From a virus, in the IMG/VR virus record IMGVR_UViG_3300042156_000083, positions 1-43,563 of that record: a stretch of DNA of 43,563 nucleotides. The stretch is one strand, 5' to 3'. A program made the position numbers and the translations under genes. Shown here one piece after another: positions 2,599 through 13,809 of this stretch. Below the pieces are notes generated by a model, which saw nothing but the letters and a program-made list of their open reading frames with translations, made no database searches and was not told where the DNA came from. Every line of letters starts with the position of its first letter. Positions within the stretch are counted from its first letter, which is position 1.

Positions 2599-3288
2599 AT
2601 GAACATCGAATCGCGGATCTGGGGCACTACCCGCACCGGAACCAAGGTCCACGCATTTGGCGAGGACGGCACCGCCCTTTGCCGGAGCAGCGTTATCTCT
2701 AACCCGGGCGGCACCTGGATCGACCACGCGGCCGCTCGCCGCTGGGTCCTGGGTAGCCCCGGTCTCTCCTTCTGCACCACCTGCGAGGGCAAGTTCCAGG
2801 CCCGTATCGACGCCACCCCGGCCCCCGTCGAGAAGCCGGACTGCACCTGCCCCGACTACGAGCCCCCGGCCAAGTACGGGCACCACGTCGTGTGCCCCCT
2901 GAGCGACACCGACAACAAGGAGAGCGACGACATGGCGAGTGAGACCACCACCCGCACCGGCCCCCTGACCGAACTGCAGAGGAGCATCCTGACCGGACTG
3001 ATGCAGGGCAAGTCCAACATCCGCGTGGGAGTCGAGCACGGCAAGAGCCGTACCCACGTCGCCAACATCATCTCGGCCGCCGTGGACAAGATGGGCTGTG
3101 AGACCTCACGGCAGGCTATCGCCATGCTCGCCACCCACAACGCCTACCTGGAAGCGGCCGCGCTGATTGAGGCGGACGCGGCGGGGCTTCGGTCCAACAA
3201 CAGCGTGAGTGACGACTACGTGGCTGCGTGCTTGGCGGATCTGGCGGACATCCTCAGGTCCCGGGCCGCGAAGCTCATCCCCTCGTGA
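2599..3288 (+). CDS. LuxR-type HTH protein, possible early regulator
   Basis: 229-aa protein. The C-terminal half (about residues 120-180, LTELQRSILTGLMQGKSN then SRTHVANIISAAVDKMGC) has the spacing of a LuxR/GerE helix-turn-helix. The N-terminal half has Cys pairs (CTTC at 59-62, CTC and HHVVC further on) that could bind a metal, but is not recognised. First gene after promoter P1 with ribosome site GGAAGAGGGAGC, so it is expected to be expressed early. An internal ATG at 2932, preceded by AAGGAGAGCGACGAC, would give a shorter HTH-only product of about 118 aa. The target is unknown. Confidence 0.75.
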   Translation: MNIESRIWGTTRTGTKVHAFGEDGTALCRSSVISNPGGTWIDHAAARRWVLGSPGLSFCTTCEGKFQARIDATPAPVEKPDCTCPDYEPPAKYGHHVVCPLSDTDNKESDDMASETTTRTGPLTELQRSILTGLMQGKSNIRVGVEHGKSRTHVANIISAAVDKMGCETSRQAIAMLATHNAYLEAAALIEADAAGLRSNNSVSDDYVAACLADLADILRSRAAKLIPS

Positions 3289-4571: not shown

Positions 4572-6238
4572 CGCAATTGCGATTGCGCGAATATCAAAAA
4601 GAGGCAATCGACGCGGTATTCGCCGCGTGGGCGGGCGGCATGCAACGCCCGGCCATCGTGCTCCCGACCGGCGCGGGGAAGACCGTGGTCTTCTCCGCCC
4701 TGGTGAAGGAATTCCGGGCGTGGTCGGAGTCGCCCTGGGAGGCTAGCAAGCGCGTCATGATCCTCGCCCACCGGGACGAGCTCGTAGACCAGGCCATCGC
4801 GAAGCTGCGGGCGGTCATGCCGGGCGTGAGCATTGGCAAGGTCAAGGCCGACGACAACGACATCTACGCCGACGTCATGGTTGCGTCCGTCCAGACAGTG
4901 CAGCGCAAGCGGTTGCAGGCCCTGGTCCACGCCCAGGACAACGCAGGCTCCATCGGCCTGATCATCACGGACGAGTGCCACCACGCGGCCGCAGCGTCGT
5001 ACAAGAAGATCTACGCCGCGTTCCCGGACGCACTCCAGCTCGGGGTTACGGCCACCATGGCCCGGGGCGATCGGGTGGGGCTCGGGGACGTCTGGGACGA
5101 CGTGGTCTACAAGCGGTCAATCCTCTGGATGATCTCCAAGAGGTACCTGACCGACGTCCGGACCAAGCAGATCGACCTCAAGGCGCTCGACATGAGCCAG
5201 GTCAAGCGCACGTTCTCCACCCTCAGCAACGGCGGGGGCGACTGGCAGGCCGGTGCGCTGGGTGAAGCGCTCATGGAGGCGGAGTTCGACACGGCCATCG
5301 CACGGGCCTACAGGGAGCATGCCGGCGACCGGCAGGGCATCGTGTTCACGCCGACCGTGGAGACCGCATACGCGGCCGAACAGGCACTGCACGACGCGGG
5401 GATCATGTCGTACGCGGTCGACGGCACCACGACCTGCGAGGCACGCCGGGACGCGTACGAAGCGTTCCGTAAGGGAGACATCCAAGTCCTGGTCAACTGC
5501 ATGGTCCTGACCGAGGGCTTCGACATGCCTCAGGCCGAGGTCGCGGTGATCGCCCGGCCCACCCAGTCGGCACCGCTGTACACGCAGATGATCGGGCGCG
5601 TGCTGCGGCCGTACCCGGGCAAGAAAGAGGCCCTGGTTCTCGACCTGGTGGGCGCGTCGGCCAACAAGCTGCGCACCCTGATCGACCTTGAGCCTGAGGC
5701 GGTCAAGACGCTGCGCGATGGGGAGTCCCTGGCGGAGGCGGTCATCCGGGAGGAGGAGGAGCTCAACAGCACGGTTTCCGCCGGTTCCCTGGCGTTCGAG
5801 CTGAAGGTTCGGGAGGTCAACAGCTTCGAAGCGTCCGAGCACGCGTGGGTGCGTACGCCCGCAGGGGTGCTGTTCATCAACTGCGGTCAGACACGCGTGT
5901 TTCTGTGGCCGACGCCGGCCTCGTGGGGCGGTAACCGGCGGGGTGAGTGGGACGTGTGCGTGGCGGTCCCGGGGTTCCCGTGGAAGCGCATCGAGCCGTA
6001 CACGGGTTTGGACATCGCTGCGGCGATGGCGTGGGGTGAGGCGGTGTCGGAGGACTACGCCCCGCACTTCGGCACCCGGCGCGGTGCCGCGTGGCGGAAG
6101 AAGAAGCCGACCGACGCGCAGAAGACCAAGGCAGCCCAGTACGGCATCAGCGTCGCAGGCAAGAGCGCAGGCCAGGTATCGGAGGCCATCGACGTGGCTG
6201 CGGGTGCCGAGTACTTCGATGAGTACGTCAAGGGTTGA
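4568..6238 (+). CDS. SF2 DNA helicase (DEAD/DEAH type)
   Basis: 556-aa ATP-dependent helicase for replication, recombination or repair. Read from GTG 4568 (GTGA overlap). Motifs in order: Q-like LRLREYQKEAI; Walker A LPTGAGKTV (about 35-43); Ia ILAHRDELVDQA; Walker B with ITDECHH (about 134-140); III VTATMARGD; motif IV-VI region GIVFTPTVE, VLTEGFDMP and QMIGRVLRPYPGK (about 341-353). This is the type III restriction/Rad25-like layout without a nuclease. The C-terminal 180 residues are less conserved. Its stop codon lies inside the -35 box of the next promoter. Confidence 0.92.
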   Translation: MTQLRLREYQKEAIDAVFAAWAGGMQRPAIVLPTGAGKTVVFSALVKEFRAWSESPWEASKRVMILAHRDELVDQAIAKLRAVMPGVSIGKVKADDNDIYADVMVASVQTVQRKRLQALVHAQDNAGSIGLIITDECHHAAAASYKKIYAAFPDALQLGVTATMARGDRVGLGDVWDDVVYKRSILWMISKRYLTDVRTKQIDLKALDMSQVKRTFSTLSNGGGDWQAGALGEALMEAEFDTAIARAYREHAGDRQGIVFTPTVETAYAAEQALHDAGIMSYAVDGTTTCEARRDAYEAFRKGDIQVLVNCMVLTEGFDMPQAEVAVIARPTQSAPLYTQMIGRVLRPYPGKKEALVLDLVGASANKLRTLIDLEPEAVKTLRDGESLAEAVIREEEELNSTVSAGSLAFELKVREVNSFEASEHAWVRTPAGVLFINCGQTRVFLWPTPASWGGNRRGEWDVCVAVPGFPWKRIEPYTGLDIAAAMAWGEAVSEDYAPHFGTRRGAAWRKKKPTDAQKTKAAQYGISVAGKSAGQVSEAIDVAAGAEYFDEYVKG

Positions 6239-6271
6239 CACTCCCGAAGCAGCGATGCTTTACTTAAGTCA
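6235..6271 (+). promoter_or_regulatory. Early promoter P2 with TTTACTTAAGTCA box
   Basis: TTGACA at 6235-6240, 18-bp spacer, TTTACT at 6259-6264 within TTTACTTAAGTCA. The helicase stop TGA (6236-6238) is inside the -35 box. Gives the ParB-like gene and downstream cassette their own promoter. Shares the whole motif with P1 and P3. Confidence 0.75.
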
Positions 6272-6331
6272 CCGGGGGCCGGGCAGATGAGAGGCCCGGC
6301 TCCCGGAACCAACAGCAAACAAGGAGCAGCA

Positions 6332-7123
6332 GTGCACATCGAAATCGTGGACATGACCCCGGAGCTTGCAGCACAGCTCCTGAAGTCCAACGTCAAGAAC
6401 CGGAACCTGAACGCCAAGACTGTCGCCGCATACGCCAGGGCGATGGGGCGCGGCGACTGGATGAGCAACGGCGAGGCTTTCAAGGTCGCCCGGGACGGGA
6501 CCGTGCTTGACGGGCAGCACCGTGCGGCCGCAGTCGTCGCCTCTGGCGTCACCCTCGAAAAGGCGCTGCTGGTAACGGACCTCGACCCCGCGTCCCAGGA
6601 CACCATGGACTCCGGCCGCAAGCGCACCACAGCAGACGCGCTCAGCATCCACGGCATGGGCAACGCCAACGTCCTGTCAGCCGTCGCCCGACGCGCCTGG
6701 ATGTGGGACAGGGGCAACTACAAGTTCGTGAACACCGAGATCCCCACCACCTCCGAGGTGATGGAGACCATCGACAAGTACCCCAGCCTTGAGCGCTCCG
6801 CCGAGATCGGCACCCGCACCAACAACTCCTACCGGCCGGCCGGAGCTACAGCCACCGGGGTCGCCCACCACCTCTTCCACCAGCTGGACGAGGGCACGGC
6901 CGCAGAGTTCTTCGCACAGCTCGGCACGGGCGCAGGTCTGGACGACGGGCACCCGGTGCTGACCCTGCGCAACCGGCTCGTCCGGGACAAGGTCGCGGGG
7001 AAGGTGCTCACCACGCCGCTCGCCCTGGCCTACTTCATCCGGTCATGGAACGCGGTCCGGGAGTACCGCACCCTCGCGGTCATCGTCCACACGGCCGCCG
7101 AGCCGATGCCGATGCCGGTCTAG
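6332..7123 (+). CDS. ParB/Srx-fold domain protein
   Basis: 263 aa from the GTG at 6332, which has AAGGAGCAGC at the right distance; an ATG at 6287 lacks this. Near residues 56-66 is LDGQHRAAAV, the DGQHR motif of ParB/Srx-type nuclease or CTP-binding domains, preceded by the family's typical Asn/Lys helices (KSNVKNRNLN). Proteins of this type in actinophages occur among DNA-metabolism genes and may act as ParB-like nucleases or DNA-binding factors. The biochemical role is not known. First gene after promoter P2. Confidence 0.7.
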   Translation: MHIEIVDMTPELAAQLLKSNVKNRNLNAKTVAAYARAMGRGDWMSNGEAFKVARDGTVLDGQHRAAAVVASGVTLEKALLVTDLDPASQDTMDSGRKRTTADALSIHGMGNANVLSAVARRAWMWDRGNYKFVNTEIPTTSEVMETIDKYPSLERSAEIGTRTNNSYRPAGATATGVAHHLFHQLDEGTAAEFFAQLGTGAGLDDGHPVLTLRNRLVRDKVAGKVLTTPLALAYFIRSWNAVREYRTLAVIVHTAAEPMPMPV

Positions 7124-7130
7124 CACCACA

Positions 7131-7171
7131 GCCCCGATGGTCGCAGGCAGGGTTCGACTCCCCGCCGGGGC
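7131..7171 (+). other. tRNA-like minihelix (acceptor-like stem plus T-arm only)
   Basis: GCCCCG (7131-7136) pairs with CGGGGC (7166-7171). Between them are the linker TGGTCGCAGG and a T-arm: CAGGG / loop TTCGACT / CCCCG with one A-C mismatch. D and anticodon arms are absent. It resembles a tRNA gene with its middle removed, or the 3' part of a host tRNA as in attP cores, but no integrase is present. It occupies the only gap (7124-7200) in this operon. Confidence 0.45.
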
Positions 7172-7200
7172 ACTCCGCACCACTGAGAGAGGAGAACGAC

Positions 7201-7341
7201 ATGCAGTACGCGTGGTATCAGATCCTCGGTTTCGGCCTCATGTTCGGCGTGGCCACCTTCCTCGTGTTCCGGGGCCTCGACCTGGCACTGGAAGCGTTCC
7301 TGGAGAAGCGGCAGGCGAACAGGGACCGCCGTGGCGCGTAA
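7201..7341 (+). CDS. Small single-span membrane protein
   Basis: 46 aa: QYAWYQILGFGLMFGVATFL begins the protein, giving one membrane helix of about 20 residues (6-27), then a charged, basic C-terminal tail (FLEKRQANRDRRGA). Ribosome site GAGAGGAG upstream of the ATG at 7201. Overlaps the resolvase-like gene by 11 bp. No family recognised. Topology suggests N-out/C-in by the positive-inside rule. Confidence 0.65.
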   Translation: MQYAWYQILGFGLMFGVATFLVFRGLDLALEAFLEKRQANRDRRGA

Positions 7342-7717
7342 CACCGCAGCCCAGGGCGCGGCGTTCGAGCGGCGTGTGATCAAGGACCTGGAGCCCTACG
7401 GCTACGACTGCATCCGGTCGGCAGCATCCAAGGGCAAGGTCGACGTCGTGGCCATCGGTCCTCTCCACCCGTTCTACCTGGGTGGGACGGGCCAGGGCCG
7501 GGCGATGCTCTTCATTCAGTGCAAGATCACCAACCCGCTCATCAGCCCGGCGGAGCGCACGGGGATCCTCGACCTGGCCCACAGGGCCGGAGCGGAACCC
7601 CTGGTGGCCTACTGGGCGAAGCACGAGACGACCGGCCTCATGGCCGTGCACTACCGGAGTCTGACCGGCCCCGGACCCAAGGAATGGGCGCCCTGGGCGC
7701 CCGGAGAGGGCGAGTGA
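7331..7717 (+). CDS. Holliday-junction-resolvase-like PD-(D/E)xK nuclease
   Basis: 128 aa from GTG 7331. The layout matches Hjc/VRR-type nucleases: E13 in AAFERRVIKDLE, the active-site pair of GKVDVVAI (D38) after a CIRSAASKG strand-loop, and FIQCK (about 60-64, the xK element). Such enzymes cut branched DNA made during recombination and before packaging. Fits with the nearby helicase and ParB-like protein. Could instead be another small endonuclease of the same fold. Confidence 0.75.
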   Translation: MARNTAAQGAAFERRVIKDLEPYGYDCIRSAASKGKVDVVAIGPLHPFYLGGTGQGRAMLFIQCKITNPLISPAERTGILDLAHRAGAEPLVAYWAKHETTGLMAVHYRSLTGPGPKEWAPWAPGEGE

Positions 7718-7911
7718 TGGAGCTGGACGTCTGGCTCGGTCAGGCGGCAGACAGGGCCGAGTTCAGGACCCTGGAAGTCCAGGAGACGATCGACGGCGGC
7801 CCTTCGGTCCGGTTCACGATCAACGGGGAGCGCGCTCTCCTGACCCGTGAAGAGGTCAGGATTCTGTTCCTCAGCCTCAAGTACTGGCATGACCTTGGAG
7901 AGGACGACTAA
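7717..7911 (+). CDS. Hypothetical small protein
   Basis: 64 aa from the ATG at 7717 (TGATG overlap with the resolvase stop). Predicted beta strands (VQETIDGGPSVRFTINGERALL) then a helix (REEVRILFLSLKYWHDL). A similar strand-then-helix plan, and the phrase ELDV near the start, recur in the first 65 residues of the next protein, so the two may be related modules. Function unknown. Confidence 0.6.
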   Translation: MELDVWLGQAADRAEFRTLEVQETIDGGPSVRFTINGERALLTREEVRILFLSLKYWHDLGEDD

Positions 7912-8633
7912 TGGCTGACTCGATCTTCAGGTACGAAGACCGCGACGGCGACGAGCTGGACGTGTACCGGGGCAACGCGGGTGCGCTGACCTTCCACGCC
8001 ACCAAGGCCGAGGACAGCGCGCTGACCAGCGTGCACCTGAACCCCGAGGCTGTACTCCAGCTCCGGGACGCGCTCACCGCGTGGGTCGGCTTCAGTACCC
8101 CCGAGCCCGGATTCACCACCCCGTCCGACGTCCGCGCCATCGTCACCAAGATGCTCGCCGACGTCCTGCCCCTCCACCAGGCCCCGCAGGCGGCCGTGCC
8201 GGCGCCGCTGTGCACCCTCCCCGGGTGTGACAAGTTCCCCGCCTCCTCGGAGCACTTTGAACACGACCCCGAGCCCCGCGACGTGGGCCACCCCGAGCCG
8301 TATGCCGGGGACGAGTGGGTGCCCCTGACCGGCACCAGTTGGCACAACATGTCCGCAGCGGACAACCTGCTGTGGGCCGAGAACGCCGCACCGCTCTGCG
8401 ACGGCGTCCGCCCCCTCGGAGTCGACGCTGACGACGAATGCCCGGCCTGCGCGCACCTGTGGGCCGTCCACGCCGCACCCGCGCCGAGTGCACCCCGTCA
8501 GCTGGTCGGGTGCGAGTGCGGGCACGGCTGGGGAGTGCACGAGGCCATTTCCGGCGGGTGCACGGCGCGGGTGCAGGGATGGGGCGAACCCTCCGTGTGC
8601 GAGTGCGTACTCACTCCGCCGAGTGCGTCATGA
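7911..8633 (+). CDS. Hypothetical protein with CxxC...WxxH motifs
   Basis: 240 aa from the ATG at 7911 (TAATG overlap). Residues 1-65 form a small beta/alpha module like its upstream neighbour. The C-terminal half is Cys/His/Trp-rich and carries CPACAHLWAVH and CECGHGWGVH, plus CTLPGCDKF and CECVL, which look like small zinc-binding hooks. The next protein has the same motif (CSECGQLWGAH), so the two probably belong to one system. The last 150 bp lie in the GAGTGC-rich island. Not recognised; soluble. Confidence 0.6.
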   Translation: MADSIFRYEDRDGDELDVYRGNAGALTFHATKAEDSALTSVHLNPEAVLQLRDALTAWVGFSTPEPGFTTPSDVRAIVTKMLADVLPLHQAPQAAVPAPLCTLPGCDKFPASSEHFEHDPEPRDVGHPEPYAGDEWVPLTGTSWHNMSAADNLLWAENAAPLCDGVRPLGVDADDECPACAHLWAVHAAPAPSAPRQLVGCECGHGWGVHEAISGGCTARVQGWGEPSVCECVLTPPSAS

Positions 8634-9470
8634 GTGCGCGCACTCGGAACGACTGGATTCTGTGGGGTGCACTCGGGTGCGCACTCGTCAGCACCGCGCA
8701 CTCGGAGTGGAGCCTCGCGGTCGGCATGGGTGCGCACCCATGGGTCGCACTCGCCGTACCCGGTGCACTCGACCTGTACGTGATCCGCGCACTTCAGGTC
8801 CGGCGCGACGTGTTCGTGGCCGTACTCGCCATGGTCGCGGCCAACGTCACCTGGTACCTGGTGCACTCGGGCGACCTGCCGATCGAGTGGTGGCTGCGGG
8901 GTGCGGTCGCGGCCATCGCACCCCTGGTGGTCTGGCGGGTGCACTCGCTGAAGTACACCGCACCCGCCCCTGACCTGCGGAACGAGGAGCCGAGTGCGGA
9001 CGCGGGTGCGGTGAGTGCACCCGAGGAGTACACCGCACCTGCACCCGAGTGCACCCACGTGATGTGCCAGGAGTACCGCACCTGCCAGGTCACCCCAGAC
9101 GCACTCGCCGAAATGGCTGCCGCACTCGCGGGTGCACCCGCACCCGAGTGCCCGTTGTCCGAACCGTTCCTCATGGACCTTGACCACGAGTGCAGCGAGT
9201 GCGGGCAGCTCTGGGGGGCGCACCCGGAAGTGCTGCGCAAGCGTGCTGAGCATGCAGCGAAGTACGACGCACCCGAGTACGTGCCCGCCGACTGGAGTGC
9301 GGACCCCGTACCGTACCTGCGGGCTGTACCCGCACTCGCACCCGACTTCGACCCCGTGAGTGCGGTGCACTCGTTTCCGGACGTCGTGCACCTGAAGCCG
9401 AGTGCACTCCGGCCGGGCGACGAAATGCACCTGGCCGGCGCACAGGAGTACCTCGACAACTGCGCACTCA
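8480..9470. repeat. GAGTGC/GCACTC hexamer island
   Basis: By eye about 29 copies of GAGTGC or its complement GCACTC fall in roughly 1 kb, where chance gives less than one. GGGTGC/GCACCC and GAGTAC/GTACTC variants are also dense. Some form perfect palindromes, such as GAGTGCGCGCACTC at 8632-8645 and GAGTGCACTC at 9399-9408. The motif occurs in all codon phases (Glu-Cys, Ser-Ala, Ala-Leu, His-Ser) and spans the end of one gene and most of the next. It ends near 9470 and is rare elsewhere in the window. Confidence 0.85.
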
Positions 9471-9574
9471 CGGACACCGAGCCCTCGGTTCGGGGCCTGA
9501 GAAAGGCCATCAAGGTTGGCCAGGACAGGGCCGACCGGCTTATGGAGCACTTGCAGCACGAGGAGGAGCTGTGA
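8630..9574 (+). CDS. Four-span membrane protein with Cys-rich cytoplasmic tail (Spd/DUF2637-like topology)
   Basis: 314 aa from the ATG at 8630 (ATGA overlap). About four membrane helices in residues 8-105 (segments beginning WILWGALGCALV, WVALAVPGALDLYVI, VFVAVLAMVAANV and WWLRGAVAAIAPLVV). Their order and the HPWVALAVPGALDLYVIRAL phrase recall DUF2637/Spd plasmid-spread proteins of Streptomyces, but this is only resemblance. The long tail is rich in Ala-Pro, contains CSECGQLWGAH like its neighbour, and ends in a helix resembling a small DNA-binding motif (SVRGLRKAIKVGQDRADRLM). Nearly the whole gene lies in the hexamer island and uses Streptomyces-rare codons such as GCA and AGT. Confidence 0.6.
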   Translation: MSARTRNDWILWGALGCALVSTAHSEWSLAVGMGAHPWVALAVPGALDLYVIRALQVRRDVFVAVLAMVAANVTWYLVHSGDLPIEWWLRGAVAAIAPLVVWRVHSLKYTAPAPDLRNEEPSADAGAVSAPEEYTAPAPECTHVMCQEYRTCQVTPDALAEMAAALAGAPAPECPLSEPFLMDLDHECSECGQLWGAHPEVLRKRAEHAAKYDAPEYVPADWSADPVPYLRAVPALAPDFDPVSAVHSFPDVVHLKPSALRPGDEMHLAGAQEYLDNCALTDTEPSVRGLRKAIKVGQDRADRLMEHLQHEEEL

Positions 9575-11899: not shown

Positions 11900-13006
11900 A
11901 TGGCGACTCCGCTCACCCCGGACCAGATCGTCAGAGCACTCAAGGCCGAAGGCGTCAGCCTCACAGAATTCGAGTCCTGGCGAGTGCACAACCGCAACCA
12001 CAAGGGCGCGTGGGGCCCCGTCAACGGCGTCATGATCCACCACACCGTCTCCTCGGGCGAACTCGCCTCCGTGGAACTCTGCTACAACGGCTACGACAGC
12101 CTCCCCGGACCGCTGTGCCAGTCCGTCATCGGCAAGAGCGGGCAGGTCTACATGACCGCCAACGGCCGAGCCAACCACGCGGGCGGAGGATCCCCCGACG
12201 TTCTCGCAGCGGTCACGGACGAGCGCTACAACGACCGGCCCCCGGCCACGCGTCACCACGACGGGTCCCCGGGCGCCGTGGACGGCAACGCGCGCTTCTA
12301 CGGCGCCGAATGCGTCAACCTGGGCGACGGCAAGGATCCTTGGCCGGACAAGCAGGTGGACGCGGTCGTGCGGTGGGCCACGGCCATCTGCCGGGCGCAC
12401 GGCTGGTCCGCGAAGTCGGTTATCGGCCACAAGGAGTGGTCGGACTGGAAGTCCGACCCGCGCGGCCCCGGCACTGTCGTGGACATGACCGTTCTCCGTG
12501 CGAAGATCGCGGAGAGGCTCGCGCACCCGCCGAGCTGGAACCCCGCCACGACCACGGCACCGACGACAGGGACCACCGTGACCAAGCCGAACCGATCCCA
12601 CCTCAAGCGCTTCGAGGAAATGAACCTTGAGGAGAACGTCCCGGCCGCCATCTACTGGACCACCGAGTACCCCGACGACGCCAACGGCCACGGCGAAGGC
12701 GGCAAGACCGTCGGCTCGAACATCACCTACGACGCCACCGTGAACCTCACCCTCCTCGGGCTCGGGGAGGACCACTTCGTGGAGGTCTACGCGGCCGAGG
12801 AAGACGCCAACGGGGTACTCCTCGGGGAGTCCGCCATGCGCACCCAGGTATGGGGCAAGCGCGAGGGCTTCCACCCTGTCCGGGTGTCCGTGCCGGTCTC
12901 GGGCTACGTCGGCAACCGGCTCTCCTTCCGCATCGTTTCCCGGGCCTCCAGCCTGGTCACGGTCGAAGAGGCCGAGCTGTACATGCACTCCTGGCCCCTC
13001 AGCTAG
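11900..13006 (+). CDS. Endolysin: N-acetylmuramoyl-L-alanine amidase (Amidase_2)
   Basis: 368-aa cell-wall hydrolase that cuts the amide between MurNAc and the stem peptide for lysis. Catalytic domain about 1-215: zinc ligand in VMIHHTVS (45-50), HAGGG, then YGAECVNLG, and a second zinc site plus catalytic region in VIGHKEWSDW...SDPRG (about 174-190). A Thr/Pro linker (about 217-232) leads to a C-terminal beta-rich domain of about 135 residues that is not recognised and probably binds the cell wall. No signal peptide, so it needs a holin. Confidence 0.93.
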   Translation: MATPLTPDQIVRALKAEGVSLTEFESWRVHNRNHKGAWGPVNGVMIHHTVSSGELASVELCYNGYDSLPGPLCQSVIGKSGQVYMTANGRANHAGGGSPDVLAAVTDERYNDRPPATRHHDGSPGAVDGNARFYGAECVNLGDGKDPWPDKQVDAVVRWATAICRAHGWSAKSVIGHKEWSDWKSDPRGPGTVVDMTVLRAKIAERLAHPPSWNPATTTAPTTGTTVTKPNRSHLKRFEEMNLEENVPAAIYWTTEYPDDANGHGEGGKTVGSNITYDATVNLTLLGLGEDHFVEVYAAEEDANGVLLGESAMRTQVWGKREGFHPVRVSVPVSGYVGNRLSFRIVSRASSLVTVEEAELYMHSWPLS

Positions 13007-13279: not shown

Positions 13280-13809
13280 AGGCGTTGCGATGGTGGGCGG
13301 TGCTGGTCGTCCTCTCCGTGGGCACGGCCTTCGCCATCGCCTACGGCCAGAGCATCGCCGAACGGCTCGACACGGCGGAACGCGACCGGGCCGCACTCGC
13401 GCAGCAGGTGCGGTCCCTCGGGGGCGTCCCGGTCGTCGGCCCCAAGGGCGACGACGGCGTTAACGGCGTTAACGGCGTTAACGGCAGGGACGGACGCGAT
13501 GGCAAGGACGGACAACCCGGTGCCAATGGTTCTCCAGGGCCCACGGGTCCGCCTGGCCCGGTGGGTGCAGAGGGGGCAGTGGGGGCGGAAGGAGCCGCCG
13601 GGGCTCCCGGAACACCAGGCGTTCCGGGCCCTGCGGGGCCGCAAGGAGACGCGGGACCGACGGGACCTGTCGGTCCGAGCGGGCCGCCCGGCCCTACCGG
13701 GCCGCAGGGCGACGCGGGCCCGCCTGCGGAAGCCTGCCCCACGGGCTACGCAGGTGAGATCGTGAAGATGAACGGCACCGACTACTTCATGTGCCGGAAG
13801 GTGAGCTAA
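13276..13809 (+). CDS. Membrane-anchored collagen-like protein
   Basis: 177 aa from GTG 13276 (GTGA overlap). An N-terminal membrane helix (about 4-23, WWAVLVVLSVGTAFAIAYG) is followed by a short coiled coil, then 32 consecutive Gly-X-Y triplets (from GPKGDD to GPP), then a C-terminal cap with two cysteines (CPTGYAGEI...FMCRKVS). Collagen-like repeats trimerise. In phages they normally lie in fibers, but here the anchor and the lysis-gene neighbours suggest a membrane or envelope location. Three exact 9-bp repeats GGCGTTAAC lie at 13456-13482. Role unknown. Confidence 0.8.
   Translation: MKALRWWAVLVVLSVGTAFAIAYGQSIAERLDTAERDRAALAQQVRSLGGVPVVGPKGDDGVNGVNGVNGRDGRDGKDGQPGANGSPGPTGPPGPVGAEGAVGAEGAAGAPGTPGVPGPAGPQGDAGPTGPVGPSGPPGPTGPQGDAGPPAEACPTGYAGEIVKMNGTDYFMCRKVS

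Follow-up and report, generated by a model that had tools for sequence, protein, structure and literature searches.

SpdA2, encoded by plasmid pIJ101, binds sps palindromes that lie within the gene encoding it; when these sps sites are removed by synonymous changes, segregational stability falls while transfer is unaffected (PMC4170104). SpdB2 (pSVH1, SLP2) is a plasmid-borne integral membrane protein which binds dsDNA and is linked to spread and stability, and in small Streptomyces plasmids clt contains 8-bp TRS repeats which TraB reads (PMC4170104 for both).

Here we analyse a locus in a virus record, taken in full (43,563 bases) and referred to below as the window, which carries terminase, portal, capsid, tape-measure and amidase genes. 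That this locus includes an array of short words at the DNA level is strongly supported; that the array is bound by the product of the gene which bears it is likely; and we hypothesise that tethering has a biological role. Taken together, we consider it probable that the island is a cis-acting binding array lying in the gene of its own binder, a membrane-anchored HTH protein which would tether the replicon.

The word island and the gene that carries it

The initial annotation had pointed by eye to a sharply bounded island of GAGTGC/GCACTC. Exact counting finds 29 copies at 8480-9470, where 0.71 are expected (Poisson p ~3e-36), and 30 across the remaining 42.5 kb, in keeping with the scarcity claimed for the rest of the sequence. 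The variants it listed are enriched as well (22 GGGTGC/GCACCC and 6 GAGTAC/GTACTC), and the island indeed overlaps the 3' end of the gene at 7911-8633 together with most of that at 8630-9574. The hexamer belongs to a looser site, GRGTRC, of which it is the most frequent form and which in most cases follows a C. The full array (Table 1) is made up of 29 GAGTGC, 23 GGGTGC, 6 GAGTAC and 2 GGGTAC, divided 29 and 31 between the two strands; elsewhere in the record GRGTRC occurs at 3.7 per kb.

These counts were compared with shuffled sequences in which both the protein and its codon usage are held fixed. From the start of the membrane domain (8645) to the stop codon there are 22 GAGTGC, against 6.7 +/- 1.8 (maximum 12) in 500 shuffles, and the sites occupy two reading-frame phases per strand of the window gene, which bears out the view that this is not a protein repeat. 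A word-unbiased test covering all 2080 strand-merged hexamers picked the same word (z = 9.2; largest null value 5.8). None of the other window genes tested behaves like the array gene, those at 7911-8633 and 11900-13006 barely passing. A separate nine-base tandem repeat, GGCGTTAAC, is present at 13449-13480 inside a tail-fibre-like ORF.

Table 1. Coordinates of the array and associated features in the window
Feature	Coordinates	Strand	Basis
Array of 60 GRGTRC sites (consensus CGRGTRC)	8475..9469	both	site count
Upstream gene, function unassigned; last ~160 bp hold the upstream end of the array	7911..8633	+	ORF, site count
Gene for a 314-aa protein with four predicted TM helices, low-confidence linker and C-terminal HTH; bears most of the array	8630..9574	+	models, homologues
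Membrane-domain coding region (aa 9-109)	8654..8956	+	moderate-pLDDT model, alignments
Linker coding region, poorly conserved, low-confidence; dense with sites	8957..9418	+	alignment, model
C-terminal three-helix HTH coding region (PSVRGLRKAIKVGQDRADRLMEHL); proposed array reader	9419..9571	+	structure prediction

The membrane helices are modelled with moderate pLDDT at aa 9-32, 44-56, 61-79 and 87-109, while the C-terminal HTH is predicted with a mean pLDDT of 90.9. Structure searches with this HTH gave weak winged-helix/HTH matches alone, all with E > 1 and including the gamma domain of FtsK, which reads KOPS; sequence comparisons were likewise weak. Domain scans of the 314-aa protein recognised neither a replication domain nor a ParB domain.

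Homologues on phages and plasmids

Relatives were obtained by scanning viral contigs with the membrane domain, which yielded eleven phages. A near-identity DNA search in phages and an HTH-only scan gave no match, and scans of genome and viral contigs with the full-length protein retrieved no relatives; a joint alignment of the first seven membrane domains was too diverse to serve as a scan query. In all eleven phages this gene has retained an array of the GRGTRC class while the linker protein is not conserved, so that the homologue comparison suggested in the initial annotation, like the codon shuffles proposed there, came out in favour of selection on the DNA itself. As in the window, the arrays reach upstream of the membrane domain, and linker length and sequence vary widely.

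Between the membrane domain and the stop codon the eleven genes hold 29-56 GRGTRC sites (z 7.3-12.6), a count matched by none of 500 shuffles in any of them, and site density is 35-57 per kb at the array against 2.8-3.8 elsewhere. Because the word class was defined mostly on the window, this comparison is close to an independent test. Third-base identity in the phages is higher inside than outside words (0.79 vs 0.57; 0.74 vs 0.54). At the level of sequence comparison, selection acting on the words as DNA is thus demonstrated in the relatives, and so is the retention of the array by the eleven phages at this locus. The searched records of the window phage clade yielded neither a tyrosine nor a serine integrase. 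Most members of this clade show helical phasing of the sites (10.5-10.75 bp), which was given no weight because it is absent from plasmids, where sites most often lie 12 bp apart, probably as a result of four-codon units.

More distant homologues, with other words in the same gene, occur on plasmids and phage-plasmids of Streptomyces, Kitasatospora, Embleya and Micromonospora; tblastn retrieved 61 plasmid records, which without exception come from Streptomycetaceae or Micromonosporaceae. The groups examined differ in their word, which, depending on the group, is TGAGAC, TGAGAG, TGAGCG, CGGTAC, CCGTAC, a looser GTAC-centred word, CGGAAG/CGGAAA (CGGAAR) or CCGGTA. Plasmid sites concentrate in the linker- and HTH-coding parts, leaving the membrane-domain part nearly free, and are few in the 500 bp upstream of the gene. 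In the TGAGAC plasmid group, third-base identity is 0.97 inside words and 0.70 outside, and the rare codons CGT and ACT are kept in 100% of cases inside words as opposed to 2-4% outside. One record listed as a plasmid, L047 (NZ_CP108470.1), carries capsid, portal, terminase, integrase and ParA genes and is a phage-plasmid. Upstream of the gene, plasmid loci (e.g. L004, L006, L037 and L042) show as recurring neighbours WhiB, DUF5999, GntR regulators, Lsr2 and sigma factors.

In the all-hexamer test, 36 of the 45 family genes score higher than any of 300 shuffles. Four others (L008, L020, L035 and L042) fall just short, yet lie above all 500 single-word shuffles, which is weaker evidence because their words were chosen after enrichment had been seen. 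The remaining five (L021-L023, L025 and L026), which form one HTH subgroup, have no significant array in the gene; in two whole records of this subgroup, clusters of the CCGCCA/CGCCAA type alone are present at the gene and are not significant against codon shuffles. Canonical DUF2637 genes, used as negative controls, were ruled out as array carriers, none of 32 passing the shuffle test. Other repeats were noted in these records: in L022, whose membrane gene has no array, ten GATATC, mostly 14 bp apart, form an iteron-like block at 2857-3076, ~3 kb upstream of that gene, and L020 (9154-9774) and L025 (4493-5088) each have about twelve TGTCAG/CTGACA ~3 kb downstream of theirs.

Comparison of homologues separates the two ends of the protein. 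L005 and L007 have membrane domains that are 80% identical, unrelated HTHs and different words (CGGTAC vs TGAGAG), whereas L005 and L029, with membrane domains only 38% identical and HTHs 65% identical, both use CGGTAC. Among distant homologues these alignments demonstrate that the word covaries with the C-terminal HTH and not with the membrane domain, with the limit that words within one group are partly shared by descent. That the word tracks the HTH between homologues is our main argument, comparative rather than biochemical, that the HTH would read the word.

Proposed function and competing explanations

The HTH of the four-TM protein would bind the word (CGRGTRC in the window), many copies together, and the resulting multivalent complex would hold the replicon at the membrane. 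The nearest precedents are SpdA2/sps, where a site within the binder's gene contributes to segregational stability in Streptomyces, and SpdB2, which shows that membrane proteins from plasmids of these hosts bind DNA (PMC4170104). Such tethering may, less certainly, help an extrachromosomal element to be retained, to segregate or to spread within the hyphae of mycelial actinobacteria. The whole would work like a centromere anchored at the membrane, the low-constraint linker region of the protein's own gene doubling as the 'centromere'. A dense binding array for a phage protein was among the options first listed for the island, and it is the one which the evidence supports, the likely binder being the product of the gene that bears it. 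Two further options are disfavoured. The gene has the same architecture on plasmids that lack a phage context, which counts against an enhancer of packaging or recombination; and the word differs between elements and tracks the HTH encoded with it, which counts against a modification-site array. The Mom-like protein mentioned in connection with the latter did not materialise, no such family appearing in Pfam/PHROGs scans of most, not all, window genes.

A different role, which we regard as unlikely but which fares best among the alternatives, is that of a clt-like transfer site acting via a coupling complex, the membrane protein gathering plasmid DNA at a machine for conjugation or for transfer through cross-walls. 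On plasmids the gene is the first of an operon and is followed by genes for ~160-aa, ~75-aa and ~730-aa proteins and by one annotated 'conjugal transfer protein TraB', while in Micromonospora a T4SS-type ATPase gene lies downstream; this arrangement may point to a role in transfer, and the reading of TRS repeats by TraB also speaks for it. However, L005 and L007 have no such transfer-annotated genes downstream, and the records of the window phage, pMLP1, L005 and L007 all bear the array without a match to the FtsK_SpoIIIE domain.

More doubtful still is a set of origin-type iterons or a membrane-associated replication site, at which the protein would recruit replicating DNA to the membrane. 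Iterons inside initiator genes are known (lambda O), p16.7 of phi29 is a membrane DNA-organising phage protein, and the phage locus comes after a helicase gene. Against this, the protein has no recognised replication domain, the phage-plasmid L005 encodes its own DnaB helicase and no GC-skew switch was found at the island.

The location of the sites within the gene itself would also suit autoregulation or transcriptional silencing, the HTH protein coating its own gene and shutting it off, but we hold this to be very improbable: in plasmid genes the sites favour the linker-coding part over the upstream region, an operator would normally have far fewer sites than the dozens present here, and such a role leaves the membrane anchor unexplained. 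A by-product of a low-complexity linker, codon bias or repeat slippage, with no function in the DNA, is scarcely credible, for although some plasmid linkers resemble short protein repeats (RTAR, ESSR) with 12-bp spacing, the codon shuffles, the use of both strands and several phases and the in-word synonymous conservation contradict it, the array is retained while the protein is not conserved, and a true protein repeat (AEKEAAEKE, in a large gene of L041 at 5722-8355) fails the same word test, being explained at the protein level. Mutation bias or repeat spreading, also raised in the initial annotation, is disfavoured because synonymous positions are conserved more inside words than outside while the linker protein changes freely.

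Beyond binding and tethering at this one locus, we tentatively put forward, as a possibility that falls a little short of probable, a widespread, as yet undescribed class of tethering systems, each consisting of a single gene, on mobile elements of filamentous actinobacteria. In this class a membrane protein would bind its own coding sequence as a multivalent array, and HTH and word would evolve and be swapped as one module, serving segregation or intramycelial spread in plasmids, phage-plasmids and phages. If true, membrane anchor, DNA reader and array would be combined in one gene, a compact and swappable addressing system with about eight word classes; the natural set of HTH-word pairs would lend itself to working out a recognition code; there would be a handle on the persistence and spread of plasmids and phages in mycelia; and a coding sequence would be under strong double selection. 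The codon-shuffle word test can also find unannotated genes of the array type. The data point to a mode of membrane tethering for mobile DNA that has not been described.

Comparison with described systems

The membrane domain of the family looks like a remote relative of DUF2637, to which we take SpdB2 to belong. The window protein has four predicted helices and a predicted HTH. It gives no match to DUF2637 (PF10935) at E <= 10, and the best homologue, L005, scores 18.9 bits (E = 0.0015), below the cut-off of 22.8; the canonical genes differ in having no word array. The long N-terminal coiled coils of the plasmid versions, which the window protein does not have, weakly match Scy and DivIVA, matches that may be explained by composition. 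As to SpdB2 itself, its DNA binding is reported as non-specific (PMC4170104), unlike the word reading proposed here.

The present system, in which the array lies in the gene and tracks the HTH that would bind it, would resemble SpdA, whose target lies in its own gene. SpdA proteins are described as being of 117-163 aa, with no mention of a membrane domain in the available text of PMC4170104, whereas the window protein is a 4-TM protein of 314 aa, and sps is one conserved 12-bp palindrome in 1-3 copies, in contrast to ~10-70 element-specific words of 6-7 bp. With TRS/clt the family shares short repeated words carried on the element and, by our reading, recognition by the element's own protein. 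clt differs as a plasmid locus with 8-bp TRS and an FtsK-like ATPase (PMC4170104), the array here being within the gene of a membrane HTH protein.

ParB-parS likewise combines clustered sites with a dedicated binder on plasmids, but here the binder has its own predicted membrane anchor and most of the plasmids have ParA besides. A ParA match is present in 23 of 33 plasmid records with the gene, and the array gene is therefore no substitute for ParABS there; in the window phage, whose record may be incomplete, neither ParA nor ParB was matched. Searches of part of the open-access literature found no description of such arrays. Arrays with a dedicated binder are already known (centromeres, clt); what would be new is an array made of the very gene that encodes its membrane-anchored reader, an array that changes along with the HTH of this reader.
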